This document shows, piece after piece, positions 37,150-64,000 of a DNA stretch of 64,000 nucleotides. The notes beneath the pieces are model-generated. The model did no database searches. It worked only from the letters and a program-made list of their open reading frames with translations, and was not told the DNA's origin. Numbering within the stretch: position 1 is the stretch's first letter; the number at the start of each line of letters is the position of its first letter. The stretch lies in the NCBI RefSeq assembly GCF_029962835.1, contig NC_080573.1, positions 36,821,001 to 36,885,000 on the forward strand. Reading direction: 5' to 3'. This stretch comes from Magnolia sinica. Taxonomy: Eukaryota > Streptophyta > Magnoliopsida > Magnoliales > Magnoliaceae. A program made the position numbers and the translations under genes.

Positions 37150-38215
37150 TTATCTTTGGATAATGGGTCACTTGGTTTCAACCGTGCACTTGAAAACGTT
37201 GTGCAGCAATCCAAACCGTCAAAATTGCTGACTCAATTGTGGATGGGAGCTATATGGTTTCCAATCTAGAGGTGCACGCCAGTTGAGTCGAGCTTGTCGG
37301 CTCGGCCACTAGCTGACCCCAGCTCAAACTTGGCTTGGCTCGGCTCAGTCTTCGAGCCTGACTGGTCAGCTCGGCTCGGTTCGGTTCATAGCTCATGCCA
37401 ATTCAAGCTAAGTTCAAGCTAAGATTGAGCCAAGCTTGCCTGTGCAGCATTTTCACAAACACATGGACTGCACATTCAAATTCTCAATGTATGTATAATA
37501 ACATCGGTGATTTTATAGGTATTTCATCAAACAACTTATAGGCAAGGCCAACATTATAAAATAAAAAAATAAAAATGGTTCTTTCACATACATGCTTTGC
37601 TTGCATCAGCCAATACTTCATTGATTCATTTCATCAAACACTCGGCGAGCAACATTCATATCAAAATAACCGAGTCACCGATCTAATTCGATCCGAGTAG
37701 GTTCGAATCAAGTCAAGTCGAGTTGAGCTCGGGCAAGCTCGAACTCGGCTTGAAATTTTTTTGAACTCTAAAAAACCAGCTCGACTCGTTCTAAATCCAG
37801 TTTTGAGCCGAGGTGAGTGGAGCTTTTTCAAGTCGAATAGAGCGGGCTGACCGAGCTCACTCAACTCGTGTACAGCCCTAGTTTCCACCGTACACTTGTG
37901 GCAGCTGTACTACAATCCAAACCGCCAGTATCGCGTACTAAACTATGGAGGGTGGGCCACTTCAACACATGCATTGCTGTACAGCACGTCAGGCAGTCCA
38001 GATCTCTGAGTGGATTATCGATGGTGGGCTTCTTCGTTTCAGCTATACACATGGCATCGTTGCAAGGCAATCTAGACCATCTAAATCATTGATTCAACCA
38101 TCAACGGTGATCTTTGTTTCTACCGCACACATGCCGTTGTTGTATGGTAATTTGGACTGTTCAAATTGCTGATTTAAACTATGGATGATGGGCCACTTGG
38201 TTTCAACCGTTCACA
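37150..38215 (+). repeat. Degenerate tandem repeat, about 85-110 bp units, split by a MITE
   Basis: Units of the form TTTCAACCGT.CACTTG...GCAATCCAAACCGTC...TGCTGA.T...GGATG(GT)GGGCCACTT recur at 37175-37265 and four times at 37880-38215. The array is interrupted by the element at 37266-37888. Confidence 0.7.
37266..37888. mobile_element. hAT-like element, GGGCTGTACACGAGTTGAG family
   Basis: The left end AGAGGTGCACGCCAGTTGAG and the right end CTCAACTCGTGTACAGCCCTAG are inverted relatives, and the interior is filled with GAGCTCGG/CAAGCTCG words. GTTTCCA lies close to both outer edges, suggesting a target duplication. One end of a related copy is at 46840-46868. The right 170 bases recur at 63708. 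Confidence 0.65.
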
Positions 38216-38222
38216 TGACAAC

Positions 38223-38569
38223 AGGAATGCTCACCTGCGCACCTTCTTACGTGAGAACCCGTGCACACCTTTGCACACATGTCATGGGCACGGAATCTGA
38301 ACGGTAGCGGCACCCTTGAAAACTCACGAGCCTAATTTCCAGTCCAATCCAAAACTCTAGCGAGCCATAGAAAAAGGAAATATTTTCCTCCCTTGATTTG
38401 CATTTCTCTTTTCTATGGCCCACTAAAGTTTTGAATCAGGCTAAAAATTGGGTCTAAAGAGTTTCAAGGGTTGACACATCACATGGACCGTTCAGATTCT
38501 ATGCCCATGACACATGTATAAAGGCGTGCATGTGTGCTCACATAAGAAGGTGCACACGTGAGCATTCCT
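38223..38569. mobile_element. Foldback MITE with about 48-bp terminal inverted repeats
   Basis: AGGAATGCTCACCTGCGCAC at 38223 and GTGCACACGTGAGCATTCCT ending at 38569 are inverted repeats. The pairing runs through CACCTTCTTA.GTGAG and GTGCA..CCTTT on both sides. CCATAGAAAA/TTTTCTATGG words pair in the middle. Confidence 0.85.
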
Positions 38570-39745
38570 CTCGCATAGCAATATATATTAATCAAACACG
38601 CGTTTGACATGCGTGTGATTAATAAATGACACGTTAATTTGTGCCATCCAGACACCAAATAACATTATGCATGGGCTGTCAAAGGTCGAGCCTTGGACCT
38701 ATCTAAGTGTGGGCTTATACTGTTATCAAACGTTAAATATTCATTGTCATCCCGGGTAAAATTAATTAGAAGTGGATTGTGATAGGACAGTATTTGCTTG
38801 GGCCACATGCTGCTGATCAAGATGAAATGGGTCAAGTAAAATCAGCTTTCAAATATGCTTTGCATGGATTTTATGTCTGAAAATGACATGCAGCCCAATT
38901 AAATCCTACCACATTGGGTCTCTAGAATATCTGAGTCCAAAATAATCAAATGCAGACTATATTATTTAAATTGGAATGTTATCATTAGTCAATTAGTGAG
39001 TGGATTTCAAAGTTGGAATGCTGGAAATGTTTTTGCATGTGAGTAGTTAGCTGTAAGCTAAGTCATTGGTATTTGTTAAATAAGTGAGAAATATGTGGTT
39101 CTCATCCTACGGCAGTGGATGATCTGATCTAGAGTTAAGACCATCCGCCAGAGGGCCTAAAACTGGCAAGGTCATGGTTTATGACTCTCGTTATGTTTTG
39201 ACTATTGAGGGTTGACCATCCAACATGTACCTGTAATACAGAAGAAAAAAAAAAAAGTCCAATCTCGAGGTGGACATCACGGGGTCGGGAAGAGGATTGG
39301 CTGGTGTACCACACACCAGCTATATAGCTGCTGTAGGTCCGTGTCGTGCCAAGACGACCACTGACGCTCCCCGAGTTCCGAGTTGTACGTACGGTTCAAA
39401 GGAGATCAAAATTACAAGGCCCTACGGTGATGTATTTATTATATCTACATCATTCATCTATTTTTAGAGATTATCTTAGAGCATTTTCCAAAAAATGAAT
39501 CATATCCAAAGATCAGATGGACCACACTACAAATAGCAGTGGAGATAATGATTTTCACCGTTAAAAAAATTTGTAAGGACCACCCTAACGTTTATATCTC
39601 CTAAAACAATCCGTCCCATGATTTGGATGGTTGGGGTAGCTTTGCAGGTGAGAAAAGAGAAATGTAAGGCTGTGCTGTCTCACCACACTCGTTACATTAG
39701 CATGTGGCCGTGAGATCTGGGCCATCCATCGGGCACGCCACATTG
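38570..39745. other. No gene; partial foldback-MITE piece at the end
   Basis: No coding signal. AATGAATCATATCCAAAG..CAGATGGACCACAC (39495-39530) is an internal piece of the family M foldback MITE without its ends. Confidence 0.4.
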
Positions 39746-40290
39746 GGACGCGGATTAGCTACTGAACCTGAGTAGCGAGACTTGCTACTGAAGTGACGTC
39801 ACCGCATTTTGTGGGCCCTACTACGATGTATGTGTTGTCTCCACACCGTTCATCCATTTGGAGAGATCATTCTAGGGCACGAAACAAAGAGCGAGGCACA
39901 TCCAAAGCTTAAGTGAACCCCACCACAGAAAATAGTGAGGATTGAACGAGTACCCTTAAAAACTTCTTGGGGCTACAAGTTTTCGATCAAGCTGATATTT
40001 GTGTTTTCCCTTATTACATGTCTGTGTTAACTTATAAACAGGTTGGATTTCAAATAAACATCATGGGAAGTTTCAACGGTGGGTGTCACTGTCCTCACTG
40101 TTTTCTGTGCGGGGGTCCACTTGAGCTTTGGATCTGCTGATTCTTTGACTCATGCCCTGAAATGATATCTCCAAATAGATGGACGGCGTGGATACAACAC
40201 ATACATCATGGTGGGGCCCACAGAACGTGGTGACGTCACTTCAGTAGCGAGTTGGCTGCTGTCGGATTCGGTAGTTAATCCGCGTCCGGC
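39746..40290. mobile_element. Mutator-like foldback MITE, family M, copy 2
   Basis: Ends GGACGCGGATTAGCTACTGA and, inverted, CGGACGCGGATTAACTACCGA; further in both arms read GCTACTGAAGTGACGTCAC then GTGGGCCC. Flanks GCCACATTG (39737-39745) and GCCACACTG (40291-40299) match at 8 of 9. The interior pairs as TGATGTATGTGTTGT.TCCAC against its inverse. The arms carry the bZIP-type octamer TGACGTCA. Confidence 0.8.
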
Positions 40291-40299
40291 CACACTGTG

Positions 40300-42040
40300 G
40301 ATGTGGCTGACGTGTGGGCGAGCTAGACCATTAGTCTATGTTGGTACTCATCATGATGGACCATCCCTCGCAATTATACGTGGACCATGTTGCATTTCTC
40401 CTCCTAAATACCTCGCAACAAGGTGACAAAAGAATCAATTAAAGTGGATGTATATCAGATGAGTTAGAACCAACTCTACAGATATGACAGACCTATACTT
40501 TGTACTATCAATAGGATCAATTATAATAATTCACACACTCATATTTTATAAGAAATTATTTATTAAAATCGTTAGGGAACTGGTAAGAAACTCTTTATTA
40601 AAAGATAAGGATGAGAGAAAAATAATATAAAAAAGGGCATTATCATGCTATGGATGCCAAACCATGGGCGGGTCGCACTCATGTGTGTCGTTTTTGAGGT
40701 GTGTGGTTTGATTGAGATATTGGGTGTCTTATATTTGATTGGAGTCTCCACTAGCTAATTACTATGATTCCACAGTTAGCTAGACCCTGTAAAAACGTTA
40801 GGAGAGAGAATCTAAAAGTTCTCTATCCTAAAATGACTTATTGATCTGCGATCGAAAATTCTGGGTAAGAGACTATGGTTACAAAGCGAGAAGATGTTAA
40901 GAACCCTCTTTGCCTATACAATTGCCCAGTCTAAACTTCATAGGATTAGTCAAACTATTGAGGATTAGAGTTAGCTCTTGTATAATAAGGATATGTAAGT
41001 GTGTGGAATGTTGTGTTAATGCACTAGTGTTGCCAAGCAGTAGCTCGGGGTTAGATAAATCTACACTGACTCACCCACTTGCCAAAGTGGAATATTAATC
41101 GGTTAACCCAAGCTTTTGATGGGCAAGATCCGATAAACTCGACAAGCCACGGAGCATACACTCGAGTCAACTGGATAGAAGTGTTATGTATGAGATGCAA
41201 TGCTAATAGATGTGATGAGTAAGGGGATTGGGGAGGGAATGGATGTTGCACAATGTTAATGCAAGAATAAACAAAGTTGATCAAAGTTGGATGGTAGAAT
41301 GAACAAGTTTGTCACAAGGATGGACTTGAGTGGCTGAATTGACCTTTAGTAACTCAGGTGACTGAGGGCTAGTCTTGACTAAGTGGACCTCGGCTAGAAC
41401 TCCTTTCATGTTACTCTTCTTCTCATTAGTGGAGGGATGGAAGGGGAGATGTGGAAGGTGGTGTGTGGAGGATTACCAGAGCAAATGGGATTTGTGGATG
41501 TCCTGGAAATGAAAGGGAGGGGAGCTATTTATAGGGTTTCTAGTCGATTTTTCTATAATTGTTGAAAGATCTAGGGTTGAAAAGGGTTTAAATGCTTGGA
41601 TTGTTGGTTCCCATGTAGTGTAGTTTCAACGGTTAGATCGATGGCATGGATCATAATTTTCGTGAAAGGGAAGGGCAACTAAATCTTTTCCATCTACCAC
41701 ATATTTATGGGTGAACTGGAGCAACCCCACATGCTATGCACTCTCTCCTGCTAAAGTCAGAGAGCTTCCACGTGGTGCCTCCCACAACATGGAAGCGTGC
41801 TAAATTTTGTAGGGGTGATGCTATCACCCCACTTAACTTGTAAAATTTGGAGAGATTCCACATGGTAGGTGGCACCCTAGTCGCTGCTCAGATCAAAGAT
41901 TGACCCCAAATTTTGCAGGGGTGCTCCTGGTGTGGTCTATTACCTATGGTTCACTCAAATTTACTTTATTGTAGTCTTAAATGTTAAGGGGCATAGGTTT
42001 AGGCTTGAACAAGGCTAAATTGGGCTTGGTTTCAAGCTTC
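40300..42040. other. No gene recognised
   Basis: Nothing with coding or repeat structure could be supported on either strand beyond short AT-rich runs. Confidence 0.4.
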
Positions 42041-50431: not shown

Positions 50432-53400
50432 TCAGTCATATGGGTACCCCGAATATCCTCCTGTCAAAGGGTCATGACTTGAAGAACTATCTTCTAGTTG
50501 CCTGTAGATGGATGACTGAATGTCAGAGCTGTCATAGCCATACCCGTGATATCCCCCATAAGCATAAGGTGGGACAGAGGTGGAGCTCCCCTGATCTGAA
50601 CTTATGTCCATAGATGACATGCTGCGTGTGAGAGCATCAGCCGCGGAGCGTCCGGCTTTCTTCTTTGAACGATGCTCGAACATATATCTGGGCTCTGATG
50701 CTCTCACCCTAGATGGTGGACGAGATCCATGGTCCTCATCCTGAGTAGCATGGTCAAAGCTCTGCTCCTCAGTGAACTGGCCAACGGATCGTTGGCTCTG
50801 AGCTGTCGTGTACCCCCCACCACTGCCACCCCCACCCCCACTAGTACCACCTATACTAGTGTCGGTGCCTCCGTCCCCTCCCTCATCACCGTCGTCATCG
50901 TCGTCGTCATCCCCAGGACCAGTGTCAAGTGGGGGTTGAGTCTCATCATCATCATCATCAATCACTACGACTTGATGATGAGGGGGCCGTGAAGATGCTT
51001 CCTCACCCTGATTGGAACGTGCCGAACTCCTCACCAAAGGATCAAAGGAGTCTGTATCCGCCTTTTGTTCCTCTACTACCTGATCGACATCGATACCCAG
51101 AGCCACTACTCCCTCGGCTACCTGTGGAGCAGGGCCTCTCTCCGCATCATCTAAATCAGCTGATTTGACCCACTCATAAAGTGGGTCCTCATCATCATCA
51201 CCTATCTGTGCCATGTTACCTATAGACAATAGGTCTAACGGGTCTTGATTTTCCTCCATGTCTCGGTCTACCGGCAACTGCCTCTCTCTTAACTTCATTT
51301 TGTAATGGCAGTAAACAAGCTTTTGCAGCTTCTCATATGCTAGTCTGTTCCTCTTGCTGGTGTGTATGAGTGACCATGTGCTCCAATTCCTCTCACATGG
51401 TGAAGAGGACACAGTCTGTGCGAGAACACGGATTGCCAATAACTGCAGTGCGGGCGTGTCAACTCTGTACATCTCCCACCACTCACCTATATATCTATGA
51501 GGAGCTTGTTTTAGTTTGAAGTTTAAACGAAAAATGTAATTACCTAATTATGCTACCATACTCACACGGCATCATCGTTTCAGTCGATGCTTTTGCTAGT
51601 GCGGATGAGAACGTACCCCTAACATCCCTAAATCGCAACAACTGTAAACATGGATTCATAGGTCATTATTTTTAATCACACATATTTCTAGAGGCTATAA
51701 GGAAGAAAATTTATTGCATTACTTGGTTACCGAAATCTGCTTGTGCTGTCAATGCTGGGAACAATCGTTCAAACACCACGTGGACGACCATCGTCAAATC
51801 ATTATTCTCATGGAGCCGACGTTTATAATGAAATTTGGGATTCAGGTAGTATGCTGAAACCCAAATATTAGTTATACGGTTGTATTAACATGAAAATAGA
51901 AGTGATGCTTAAAGTACTCAATTGTATTAACAAACTTACCAGCTTGGTGGAGTGGATGCTCGAGAGTCCCAGTCCATTGACGATCGATGATATCAATCAC
52001 CAACTGATACGAAGTGGGGATTGCAGTCATTATCCTCTGTCTCATAATTCTCATAAGCTCATACATTGACCCCATCGAAGGCCACGTCTCATTATCTACG
52101 GCTCGTAGGACCTTATACATCGGATGCAGGAAGGAAACGACGTTGTGAACTTTATCCCAGAAGGAATCGGAAGCACTATATTCGAACAAGTCCTTGCACC
52201 GTCAGTCTTCCTCTGATTCCACTCCATGTATCTCTCGGATCTGAACAAATTTCTGAGACCCACGCAATGCCTGTATAAGCTGTCAAGTACAATGAAGTTC
52301 GTGGCGAATCGTGTTGCGCCTGGTCTAACGATGTCCCCTCCACAACACTCACGCATTACAGCCAACAACCATGAGTGATTGTATATAAAGTTTGTCACTT
52401 TCCTCGCATCCTGGATAGTTTTCCTGACAGAATCCCTCTGGCCTATCTCCTCGAGCATTAAATCAATGCAGTGTGCCGCACACGGGGTCCAATAGAGATT
52501 AAACTTCTGCATCAATTTCTTCCCTGCCTTAACGAACGCACTGCCATTGTCCGTCACAACTTGGACAACATTCTGGGACTCAACTTCTTTAATCACTTCT
52601 TTCAGGAGAGCATATATGTATTCGTGATCTTTTATTCTGGCCGATGCATCAATAGATTTGAGGAAAACCGGTTGTCCTCTACAGTACACCATGAAATTGA
52701 TAATGGACAATTTTGTGGGTCCTGTCCACCCATCACACATGATTGTTACCCCATACTGCTTCCAGTTTGGCTTGAGTCCACGTACCCAAGCCTGCATCTC
52801 CTCGTGCTCCCGATCAAGGTAGACGCCAAGAATCTTCTGTGGCGTGGGAGGCTTCACACCAGGCCCGGCACGCTGCACCTCCTCAATCATATTTTTGAAG
52901 TAAGGACTGGCTGCTGCATTTGCCGGTACATGGCTCGAGATGAACCACCTAGATATAGCGCCACCCACTTTCTCCCTGAGCCCCTTGCTCCACATTTTTT
53001 AATCTTTTTTGATTAACGCCTGCGATGGGTGCATCTGGGACACGAGCGCTTTGCGTGCGTTATAGGCCATGCCCGCTGCCTCCCTCAAATCGTCTGCTGC
53101 TCCCACCAGCCTCATGTCGGGACGTCCCAAACGGCGGCCTACTTTCATCAATCCGTCTTCTTTGCTCCCCCTCCCACTCTGAAGCCTGAGACTCACGAAT
53201 CACTTGTCTAAAATCACTCCTTTCTCGAGCTGTAACACAGTCATCGGGGTACACGATCCCCTCATCGTCGTCATCATCGTGCTCGTTGATAGCACCTAGG
53301 CTCCATCCAGTGCCTCGTAGCTCCTCCCTCATATCCCTCTCCCAATCTTTTTGCTGCAGCTTGCGTGACTTTGCTTCAGTCAACACTCTTCTCATCTCCC

Positions 53401-53602
53401 CTCTCACTGGCCTTGTTACACTTGGACAGTCTTTCACATTCTTGTATCCCCCTGCCAAATGTTCCTTTAGCCTAGACACTCCCCCACTCCGTATCGCTTG
53501 GCCACAATAGTTGCATATGGCCCCATATTTATTCCCCTCCACTGGCCGTCCGTGTTTCCATCCAATGTCCCTTGCTCCTCCTTTTCCCGATCCAGACGAC
53601 AT
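50432..53602 (-). pseudogene. hAT transposase (BED, DUF659, hAT_C), broken
   Basis: On - from ATG at 53602: a BED finger (CNYCGQ...RLKEHLAGG), an acidic run, then DUF659 and the catalytic core. The core has MCDGWT (first Asp), VVTDNGSAF (second Asp) and TPCAAHCIDLM (C-x-x-H). The hAT_C domain has SSPCERNWSTW with the catalytic Glu. Three introns fit: donor 51939/acceptor 51853, an acceptor at 51641, and donor 51565/acceptor 51486, giving HQA-YYLNPKFHYK and MMPC-EWWEMYRVD in frame. The product ends in a long Asp- and Gly-rich tail. Lesions: a frameshift at 53.1-53.2 kb, an in-frame TAA just before MWSKGLREK (52.99 kb), and a frameshift near 52.2 kb. Hence probably inactive. Confidence 0.88.
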
Positions 53603-53779
53603 TTTGCTCCCTATAGTATACAAATTTGCAATAATCGACAAAAAAAAAAGTGCATCGGCTAGTATTCAGTGTAATAAGCCCAAATCATTTCAAGGGCTAA
53701 GATGTTAGATCAAATCAAAATTTCATATAAATTACAATTGAGAAAAGAGTTTGCAGATTACATACTAAGTAAACTTTAT

Positions 53780-60484: not shown

Positions 60485-60928
60485 TTAGGGATGCATATTG
60501 ACATGAAAACATTCTAATGACAGTGCATGAACTATATTTTGTAAATCATGAATCTGATTTGTGACAAGTTTATCATCTATGATTTCATAGTAAATGAAAT
60601 TATTGATTGAATGTTTCTTAACTCCTGCATCTTTCATAATGTATTTCTTTTTTAAAATAGTCCATGTTTCCTTAGCAAACTTATAAAAAGCATACACATC
60701 ATACAACTCATTGGATAAAGAGTTCATAATATAATTTTTACAATTATTTTCATCTGCTACTTCAGTTTGATTTACTTGATCTATAATAAATGATTCAGAC
60801 GATATGTATGAAACTTTAAGGGTGGTCAATGTGAACATAAGTTTTTGTTTCCACCATTTAAAGTATTGTCTATCGAACGGTATGATTTTGGCTAACTCGG
60901 TAGCAATATTAACTGTTACGGTAGCCAT
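60485..60928 (-). pseudogene. Copia gag N-terminal fragment
   Basis: A 147-codon frame on - starts MATVTVNIATELAKIIPFDR and contains FKWWKQKLMFTLT, SNELYDVY and AKETWTILKKKY, the pattern of copia gag (G-x-N-[FY]-x-x-W ... A-x-x-x-W-x-x-L). It stops before any zinc knuckle. The transposon-framed kinase fragment starts only about 11 bases upstream of its ATG. Confidence 0.75.
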
Positions 60929-60938
60929 ATTCTATTTT

Positions 60939-62222
60939 AGGGGTGCACACGGTTCGGTTCGGTCTGGTTCTAGGGTGAAACCGGAATCGAATCGTTCCTT
61001 ACGATTCTCAAATTTTCAGAACCGGAATCGGACCGTCAGCACCCTAGACTGAACTGGAACCGAACCATGAAAAATGGTTCAGTTTCAGATCGGTTCCAGT
61101 TCTGGGCTTTTTATAATCCTAGTGTTGGTGGAAAGGCACTGATCAAAATGGAAAGACGTAGTTCCACATCTCCACCTCTTCCTTCACCTGGATGGGCAAA
61201 GGAAAGAAAGATAATCGGACCCCAATACTCATCATATCAGCGATTTTGGGCAGCTCTGCGTTTCTCAACTTCTTCCTCCTGTCATTGATTTTGTGGATTA
61301 TTTTCTTCACAAACCATAAAAAATTAGTGAAAATTCAGCTAGATTCCAGCTTGATCGGAGTAAATCTCCGCTCTTTTACATACATGGAGCTGGAGAAAGT
61401 CACAGATGGGTTCAAGGAAGAACTCGGGAGGGGTTCCTGTGGCACTGTTTATAAAGGCCTGCTAGAGTCGGATCGTGCAAATTTTGTGGCAGTGAAGAGG
61501 TTAGATAAAGTGGTGAAAGAAGCTGAGAAGGAATTCAAGACCGAAGTGAGTGCAATAAGCCGAATTCATCATAAGAATCTGGTCGAATTGATAGGATTTT
61601 GCGATGAGGGGCCCCACCGGCTGCTGGTGTATGAATATATGAGCAATGGCTCTTTGGCAAGCTTCCTCTTTGGCAGTTCAAGGCCTAGCTGGAACCAAAG
61701 AACACAGATTGCAAGAGGGCTCACATACTTGCACGAGGAGTGCGGGAACCAGATCATCCATTGCGACATAAAGCCCCAAAATGTATTATTAGATGACAAC
61801 TTCACAGCTAGGATTTCTGACTTTGGGCTAGCAAAGCTTCTCAGGACTAACCAGACTCAAACTACCACATACATCAGAGGGACCAGAGGATACGTCGCAC
61901 CTGAATGGTTCAAGAACATGGCAGTCACTGCAAAGGTGGATGTACATAGTTTCGGTGTTATGTTGCTGGAGATTATCTGCTGCAGGTCGAACGTTCTCCA
62001 TATACAACTAAAACATATTGTAAACTCACGGTTCTAAGTTCGGTTCCACGGTTCAGTTTGGTTCTACATACCCCCAAACCGAAACCGAACCGAACTAAAC
62101 GGTTCTTTAATTTTTGGAACCGGAACCAGTACACTCTAGAACCGGACCAAACCGGACCCTTTGGTCCATTTGGTCGGTTCCGGTCCGGTTCCACAGTTCT
62201 ACCGGTACGATCTGCACTCCTA
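60939..62222. mobile_element. Inverted-repeat element carrying a kinase gene fragment (Pack-type candidate)
   Basis: TAGGGGTGCACACGGTTCGG at 60939 and, inverted, CTAGGAGTGCAGATCGTACC ending near 62222 are related. Roughly 150-190 bases on each side are filled with GGTTCGGTTC/GAACCGGAACC words in opposite senses. The ends fit hAT elements (T-A-G-G-G). Flanking octamers TTCTATTT and GTCTGATT agree at 5 of 8 only, so the target duplication is decayed or the edge is misplaced. The cargo is the receptor-kinase fragment at 61118-62010. Confidence 0.6.
61118..62010 (+). pseudogene. G-type lectin S-receptor-like kinase (LecRK) fragment
   Basis: It starts with the end of the extracellular part ([19 protein letters not shown]). 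After a one-base shift near 61195 come a transmembrane helix ([15 protein letters not shown] to WIIFF) and a kinase domain. Seen are the Gly loop [12 protein letters not shown], Lys in [20 protein letters not shown] (non-RD type, as in LecRKs), [18 protein letters not shown] and [24 protein letters not shown] lacks about four residues usual before ARGL. The lectin, S-locus and PAN domains and the last kinase third are missing. Both breaks fall against the inverted repeats. Such genes are usually intronless, so DNA capture is enough to explain it. In the intact family these are plasma-membrane immune or stress receptors. Confidence 0.85.
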
Positions 62223-62224
62223 GT

Positions 62225-63080
62225 CTGATTTGATAACCCACAATCAGACGGCCTGGTTTATGGATGGAAATTAAACTATTTAAAAATTGAAAACCAAAAA
62301 AAATAAAAATAAAAGAAATGAGATAGAAAACATGTAGAGTTGAGTCAAGGTGTGACGTGAGTCACTCGGCTTGAAATTGAATTTTCTCCCCTTGGACAGC
62401 GTCCCAAGTACAACAGTTTTCTAGAGCAATTGACCTCCTGGATATAACGACTATAACCGGTCCAAGTGGTGCACTTATTATATGCGTTCTCGAACCACTT
62501 GCAGTTTAACTCGAAAGTGCTGAGTTAACTCGGGAACGAACTTAGCAACCAAAACTTGTAAAACAATACAAAAACAAAGAGATTTTTTTGTGTTTTCGAA
62601 AATTGAATGGAAGTCCTTATATAGACTTTGAAGTAGTGCATTAAGCACATTTTTGAAAGGGTTTGGTCGGTTGGATTTAAACTCAATAGGTGTGACAAAC
62701 TGACTGGCCACATCTCTCTAATTCAAACTAAAAGGCGCAAGTGTGAGTCCACTCTCGCAAAAGTAAAGTCTCATGAGTACCCATACACACACCTGCACCC
62801 GCGCCCGGCCCATCTCATCGTGTACACGCACGTGGACTCAAAATCAGACTTGGCTTGGCTTAGCACACCCGTGCATGTGTGGTCAATGATATATATTAAA
62901 GCTAGGGGCTCAAGCCCCCATAAAAAGGTATATCTTACATACATGAAAACTTTTTTTAGAAAAATTCGATGTGGGATTAAACCTACAACTCAAAAGTAAT
63001 AGAAATTTCAACTTTGGAGGGAAACCAAAATATTTGAATTTTTTAAAAAAAAATTATAAATTTTGAAACAAAATACATCA
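62225..63080. other. No gene recognised
   Basis: No family words on either strand. The stretch near 62930-63000 is AT-rich. Confidence 0.4.
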
Positions 63081-63084
63081 TATG

Positions 63085-63707
63085 TGTTAGATGTTGTGGG
63101 GCCCGACGTGTGGTATGTATTTTATATTAATGTTGTCCATCTATTTTTCCCTTTTATTTTAGGACATGAACCAAAAAATGAAGCAGATCTTAAGTTCAAG
63201 TGGACTACACCACGGGAAACAATGGTGAGTGAATGTGAATCATTAAAAATTTCTCAAGGCCACAAAAGTTTTAGATCAAGCTGATATTTGTGTTTTCCTT
63301 TCATCCAAATGAATTTATTGAGAGGTTGGATGACAAATATGCATTACGGTTGGTTGCCATTATATCCACTGTTTCATGTGGTATGATCCACTTATGCTTC
63401 AGATCTGGTTCCTTTTTGGGAAATAAAACACATAAATCAACTTGGCCTACATTCGTATATCCAGGGTGTCAGTCCATTTTCCCAGCTCATTTTAGGGCAT
63501 GAGCCCAAAATTGAAGTAAATCCAAATATCAGGTGGACCATAACACATGAAACAGTGGTGATTGACCATTAAAAGCGTATTGTCAACCACAAAAGTTTTG
63601 GATCAAGCTGATAATTGTTTTTACTCTCCATCTAGATCTATGTAACCTTGCAGGAGGTTGGATGACAAATAAGTACTGGGCATTACCGCGGGCCTTAGGA
63701 AGGTTTT
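63085..63707. mobile_element. Two partial family M foldback MITEs, truncated
   Basis: GTTGGGGCCCGACGTGTGG, GACATGAACCAAAAAATGAA and GTGGACTACACCACGGGAAA open one copy at 63095. A second begins about 63440 (TTGGCCTAC..., GGCATGAGCCCAAAATTGAA). Its later part (GGGCCTTAGGAAGG) is cut at 63707/63708 by the duplicated segment. Confidence 0.6.
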
Positions 63708-64000
63708 TTGAGCTCGGGCAAGCTCGAACTCGGCTTGAAATTTTTTTGAACTCTAAAAAACCAGCTCAACTCGTTCTAAATCCAGTTTTGAGCCGAGGTG
63801 AGTGGAGCTTTTTCAAGTCGAATAGAGCGGGCTGACCGAGCTCACTCAACTCGTGTACAGCCCTAGTTTCCACCGTACACTTGTGGCAGCTGTACTACAA
63901 TCCAAACCGCCAGTATCGCGTACTAAACTATGGAGGGTGGGCCACTTCAACACATGCATTGCTGTACAGCACGTCAGGCAGTCCAGATCTCTGAGTGGAT
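63708..64000 (+). repeat. Near-identical copy of 37723-38015
   Basis: The 293 bases match 37723-38015 without gaps and with a single difference (A for G in CAGCTC(A/G)ACTCG). The copy includes the right part of the hAT-like element and 127 bases of the neighbouring minisatellite, and continues past the window edge. Confidence 0.95.

Follow-up and report, generated by a model that had tools for sequence, protein, structure and literature searches.

Features of the locus

The window analysed here is a stretch of 64,000 nucleotides, C1:36821001–36885000 of the Magnolia sinica genome (1.84 Gb). It contains an element at 60938–62222 that opens with TAGGGGTGCACACGG and closes with GATCTGCACTCCTA, its outermost bases being TAGGGGTGCA (60938–60947) and TGCACTCCTA (62213–62222), both of which had been reported in the first-pass annotation. 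The element is confirmed as a Pack-TYPE element, in which the two arms of one hAT-like MITE surround 887 bp derived from a B-lectin receptor kinase (LecRK). The features of the region are as follows, with positions counted from the first base of the window.

50432..53665, minus strand: hAT-type transposase gene in pieces, with BED finger, DUF659 and Dimer_Tnp_hAT domains
60485..60931, minus strand: Copia-type gag ORF (Retrotran_gag_2, E 6.3e-09); the Pack element is inserted in the leader of this Copia element
60512..60937, unstranded: left part of a duplicated block, 423/426 to a copy 58 kb away on C1
60930..60937, unstranded: left flank TTCTATTT, one of the two halves of the C1 insertion's target duplication; its partner GTCTATTT is kept at L027 and lost in the window
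60938..61119, plus strand: left arm of the hAT-like MITE, its terminal AATCC common to the probable parental gene; 172/173 to L027 (60938–61110)
61115..62001, plus strand: captured LecRK cargo, frameshifted, comprising the end of the ectodomain, the membrane helix and some three quarters of the kinase domain
61192..62037, plus strand: open frame of 281 codons that starts with an ATG at the left switch point, truncated kinase; probably no functional gene
61193..61994 (outer limits), plus strand: parent-closest tract within the cargo, with informative sites 61195–61959; nearer to C13:2720361 than to the other Pack copies
62002..62222, plus strand: right arm of the MITE, 197/214 to the C19 copy, with a 9-bp insertion
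62223..62273, plus strand: 51 bp matching the C19 Pack copy's right flank at every base, starting with the target duplication GTCTGATT of that copy
62274..63709, unstranded: right part of the duplicated block, 98.96% identical from 62269 onward over 1441 bp

Of the limits first proposed (60939–62222) the right one stands, and the left one is moved by one position. Both arms are rich in GGTTC/GAACC, and the GGTTCGGTTCGG-type repeat that had been taken as the inverted-repeat frame is indeed above chance, with 15 matches in the window at two mismatches or fewer against 1.56 expected, nine of them within the two arms; TAGGGGTGCA alone, counted in the window in the same way, is not (51 matches against 41.4 expected). 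The arms are however no simple mirror images, since the long inverted match between them is set in by 13 bp at the left terminus and by 64 bp at the right one, and their alignment score is higher in direct orientation (82) than inverted (50), the maximum among 1000 shuffles being 40. The kinase fragment had also been described as cut exactly where the repeats begin. It does lie between the arms, with cargo limits at 61115 and 62001, but its reading frame runs on to 62037 although the sequence is MITE arm from 62002 onward. This kinase frame is the only long one inside the element, and it matches no transposase family in a profile search, so that the element is without a transposase of its own, as expected for the Pack-TYPE class.

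MITE family and target duplications

A DNA search of the same genome with the element gives 60 matching pieces from the best 40 of 2557 candidates, and among these are many loci at which the left and right arms stand near each other and the kinase is missing. Both arms are carried by 13 of the 15 cargo-less loci that were fetched (L009–L023), and the total length of these MITEs is about 530–650 bp. The interior between the arms is 154 bp in seven of the 13 loci and 152–156 bp in three more; a value of about 154 bp is not obtained at L009, where an anchor was missed, at L016, which has an internal repeat and measures 181 bp, and at L021, where the right anchor could not be located. The right-terminal 21-mer has 189 exact occurrences in the genome and its reversed control none. 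At least five loci in the same search (best 40 of 2557 candidates) bear cargo, namely the window, C1:36.94 Mb (L027), C19, C7 and C12. Copies with and without cargo, both anticipated in the first-pass annotation, are accordingly present.

An 8-bp target duplication, likewise anticipated for better preserved copies, is seen at 6/8 or better in all 17 copies scored (13 cargo-less and four with cargo; L012 and L015 were left out because the left arm was not found). Ten are exact, five match at 7/8 and two at 6/8, the cargo copies at C19 and C12 having 8/8 and those at C7 and L027 7/8. Elements of the hAT superfamily have YARNG termini and prefer nTnnnnAn targets. The left end fits YARNG in 16 of the 17 copies, the exception being L011 (TACAG), and the duplications have T at position 2 in 11/17 and A at position 7 in 8/17. 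The 8-bp duplications fit the hAT superfamily. Around the hAT gene at 50432–53665 of the window no MITE-like end pair with an exact 8-bp duplication was found, and no autonomous partner of the family came to light.

Insertion site and duplicated block on C1

The Pack element is located just upstream of the Copia gag ORF, which reads on the opposite strand. In the L027 copy a later insertion with an LTR-like start interrupts the element; beyond it the right end continues, and next comes GTCTATTT, which pairs with the TTCTATTT on the left. A query of 307 bases representing the empty site, made by joining the left flank from the window to the right flank from L027 with the element removed, aligns at all 40 places scored, from base 1 as far as base 305 of 307 or beyond, with 83–85% identity (best 40 of 1253 candidates), and the Copia leader therefore exists widely without the insert. 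Movement as one unit is thus indicated by the target duplications of the four other cargo copies and by the empty site. It is not indicated by the window copy itself, whose own flanks match as a target duplication at only 5/8 (the chance of 5/8 or better is 0.033).

With the rewritten part and the later insertion left aside, window 60512–63709 is 99% identical to C1:36939930–36948674, 58 kb apart. The limits of this duplicated block are sharp, and in the 158.5 kb compared its surroundings have no match at that identity. From 63708 the sequence to 64000 and onward along C1 repeats positions 37723–41715 of the window, over at least 4 kb at 98.2%, and this repeat starts where the duplicated block ends. 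A chain of template switches giving rise to the whole 60512–63709 block was considered and set aside; nothing is claimed for it because the right limit coincides with the start of this other repeat (98% to 37723–41715).

Cargo, parental gene and capture joins

The cargo piece has an open frame of 291 codons that matches Pkinase with an E value of 1.8e-46 over profile positions 4–195 of 263, and the LecRK piece noticed earlier is therefore real. A LecRK gene at C13:2719077–2721524, intact-looking, with 816 codons from stop to stop and B_lectin and Pkinase domains, is 96.7% identical to the cargo over 896 aligned columns and is its probable parent as judged from sequence, in keeping with the parental gene that the capture reading called for. 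It lies in a cluster of related sequences on C13. Clusters of LecRK relatives with 70–97% identity to the cargo occur at C13:2.40–2.76 Mb and C1:136.72–136.94 Mb, and members of these clusters may have exchanged sequence near 61581–61635 of the alignment.

All five cargo copies have at least one frameshift relative to the parent, and in three (C12, C7 and L027) there are stops in the parental frame. Because every copy is frameshifted, the kinase motifs still readable in the window are no evidence of function. A role of the cargo protein is considered unlikely for these reasons, and also since the 281-codon frame in the window is without the end of the kinase domain; the cargo is most likely a passenger that does nothing as a protein. 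The captives may affect the parent gene through small RNAs. A 12-bp deletion at a GATTGCA direct repeat (61680–61720) is common to the window and the C12 copy, and is absent from the parent and the three other copies; it may have arisen twice by slippage or have been inherited from a common ancestor.

At the left join the parent reads ATG-AATCC-TAGTG and the MITE TAT-AATCC-ATG, and the window and C19 copies both read TAT-AATCC-TAGTG. The bases common to both partners at the capture joins are five (AATCC) on the left and one (T) on the right. The comparison of parent, MITE and Pack copies at the joins indicates that the cargo stands in place of the interior of one MITE, its arms meeting the cargo at the interior boundaries of a single element.

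The first-pass annotation had named one finding that would overturn gene capture, namely two independent MITEs, each with its own target duplication, on either side of an ordinary LecRK pseudogene, which would then have stayed in place. On the window sequence alone this reading would be tenable, and the direct alignment of the arms over most of their length (score 82 against the shuffle maximum of 40, n=1000) is what separate MITEs would give; the copies elsewhere in the genome decide against it. Both pieces recur as arms of one element of about 530–650 bp, the outer duplications are exact in the cargo copies at C19 and C12, and the site is empty in all 40 scored Copia-family places, so that we give this reading practically no chance. 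Capture can also be imagined as a fusion, in which two neighbouring MITEs, brought together by tandem insertion, were later remobilised as one unit with the intervening sequence. Gisby and Catoni (2022, PMC8903248) propose such a fusion of neighbouring elements and favour it for Pack-TYPE elements of the TIR superfamilies examined there, hAT included. Here the left and right arms sum to one MITE minus only its interior, remnants of inner MITE termini beside the cargo are not seen in the five aligned cargo copies, and AATCC is common to both partners at the left join, and for this locus a fusion is in our judgement improbable. Templated gap repair or fork switching would fit better; the single shared base at the right join is a point against this account. 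Gene capture by a Pack-type element is therefore retained, with cargo-less copies having the same arms, several cargo copies, a probable parent on C13, 8-bp duplications and an empty site.

Mosaic structure of the window copy

Compared with L027, the window has 423/426 identical positions (99.3%) in the left flank and 172/173 (99.4%) in the left arm, and 425/427 (99.5%) in the right flank, against 726/774 (93.8%) in the middle of the cargo and 181/203 in the right arm. The left flank and left arm together differ at 4/599 positions and the cargo middle at 48/774 (Fisher p 1.2e-8), and a max-chi breakpoint within the cargo falls between 61171 and 61195, with 58 of 20000 permutations attaining such a value. 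At this left switch, where the frame in the window has its ATG, one base is deleted. The pattern is that of a mosaic, and the window copy would accordingly be a duplicate of the C1 insertion that has since been rewritten, which also accounts for its having no clear target duplication.

In its middle the cargo comes nearest to the parent gene, with 765/776 identical positions (98.6%). Between 61195 and 61959 the window differs from the parent by six transitions and four transversions in 765 columns, and the corresponding numbers in the other copies (763–776 columns) are 32+13 at C19, 25+12 at C12, 43+12 at C7 and 44+10 at L027. At three sites, 61581, 61591 and 61635, the window shares its state with the parent and the relative P2754k, and the four other Pack copies have that of P2743k; in further LecRK relatives the state of the other Pack copies is found in 16/16 at 61635 and 14/16 at 61581, and 61591 is mixed. 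These three sites span at most 55 bp and may represent one event. At seven sites (61291, 61324, 61333, 61572, 61764, 61800 and 61806) the window sides with L027 and not with the parent, and at five of them the parent alone differs from the closest rows. At 61333 and 61764 the window agrees with the Pack copies against all three closest LecRK genes (P2720k, P2754k and P2743k), which means that the parent as it now stands did not serve as the donor, or that the history is more complex.

The left-arm tree groups the window with L027 (support 100/100). In the cargo tree the four other copies stand apart at 94/99, and the window, the parent and the four-copy group meet at one open fork (82/96 and 94/99); by path distance the parent is nearest to the window (0.014), and the C12 copy is next (0.043).

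On the right side, 62223–62273 is identical at 51/51 positions to the right flank of the C19 copy, and the C1 sequence is back at 62269–62274, about 55–60 bp short of that in L027. With 62000–62290 as query, flank of this type is found at C19 and in the window alone (best 40 of 2062 candidates), and among the same candidates no match longer than 60 bp beyond the window exceeds the 89% identity of C19. Some states of the right arm are those of C19 (62000, a short form also present in the cargo-less L009), others are those of L027 (62059 and 62128), and one is common to cargo-less MITEs. With 197/214 positions identical to C19, a 9-bp insertion and seven window-only changes relative to the MITE consensus, the right arm has more differences than a patch of the same recent age as the rest would have; the assembled C19 locus therefore cannot have been the direct donor, and a history with one event is incomplete. 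A transposition unit longer by 51 bp, with a cryptic right end and a duplication TTCTATTT/AACTATTT, was rejected, as L027 has the original right end and the duplication at the same site.

Proposed history

We consider it likely that a non-autonomous hAT-like MITE became a Pack-TYPE element by replacement of its interior, spread, and that the copy in the window was afterwards rewritten by ectopic templated repair. As the comparison of the copies shows, the interior of about 154 bp in one MITE was replaced by a LecRK piece of about 0.9 kb, probably from the gene now at C13:2.72 Mb. The cargo element now stands at C19, C12, C7 and C1, bordered by 8-bp duplications (two exact and two at 7/8), and was presumably moved by a hAT transposase acting in trans. 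Finally, a break in the duplicated C1 copy may have been repaired by synthesis on ectopic templates. Repair would have entered the parental gene by homology near 61193, re-copying the middle of the cargo, changed template near 61960–61994 to a Pack copy related to that at C19, continued through the right end and 51 bp of flank, and rejoined C1 on the right side by end joining with a loss of about 55–60 bp. On a wider reading, the captured fragment was refreshed, about 0.8 kb of the cargo being re-copied from the parent on another chromosome before the repair ran on into another Pack copy and its flank; capture by hAT MITEs would then be one case of an exchange through templated repair that recurs, an old capture favouring renewed use of its parent as template. 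To this we give an even chance.

The cargo in the window could instead descend from an early-branching Pack copy that had kept ancestral states, brought in by one recombination with the C1 copy and with no fresh copying from the parent. A single homologous switch suffices in that case, the states at 61557, 61702 and 61959 can be explained as the window lacking changes of the four other copies, the agreement with the Pack copies at 61333 and 61764 is as expected, and the right arm keeps the state of cargo-less MITEs that is absent from the other four copies. The number of transversions from the parent is however four in the window and 10–13 in the others, and the parent state at 61581 and 61635 looks derived and is shared, among the closest rows, with the window and P2754k only. 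Furthermore the C19 copy, found at the same flank, has the four-copy states, and no such donor is present in the assembly among the best 40 of 2062 candidates. We regard this explanation as somewhat doubtful. An error of assembly, or an uncollapsed second haplotype, seems to us quite improbable. The window and L027 are 58 kb apart on one contig with flanks that are 99% identical, as uncollapsed haplotypes can be; a mis-join would however give C13 and C19 sequence verbatim, and the tract differs from the parent at 10/765 positions and from the C19 right arm at 17/214, and a difference between haplotypes would need the same rewriting in any case. Rewriting by ectopic templated repair is thus the reading that we prefer for the window copy.

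Relation to known Pack-TYPE elements

MULEs typically generate target duplications of 9 bp. The rice Pack-MULEs (PMC4858842) likewise have captured gene fragments between the ends of TIR elements; the elements described here differ from them in their 8-bp duplications and short hAT-like ends. The Pack-hAT elements (PMC8903248) share with ours the non-autonomous TIR ends around a host gene fragment, the target duplications, the occurrence in several copies and the cargo-less relatives. In our case, by contrast, the cargo replaces the interior of a single MITE and does not lie between two fused elements, and one copy looks re-templated from the parent. For Pack-TIRs, PMC8277862 proposes gap filling or FoSTeST, and those elements resemble ours in that the filler comes from a parental gene elsewhere, not linked to the element, in the bases common to both partners at a join and in later multiplication by transposition; they are however from animals, whereas here a plant hAT-like MITE is involved, and one copy has probably undergone ectopic copying a second time. 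A 2026 review (PMC13317346) allows for an undiscovered mechanism beside the fusion of neighbours. In the literature searched we found no account of Pack cargo being re-copied from its parent, which is no proof of absence.

The way in which TIR elements take up gene pieces from unlinked sites is still debated. At this locus the cargo-less MITEs, a probable parent, five cargo loci, an empty site and a rewritten copy are all found in one genome, so that one can read the joins and, in part, the succession of events. If the rewriting used the parent gene, parent and captive can go on exchanging sequence, and such exchange would bias the ages of capture that are estimated from identity to the parent.
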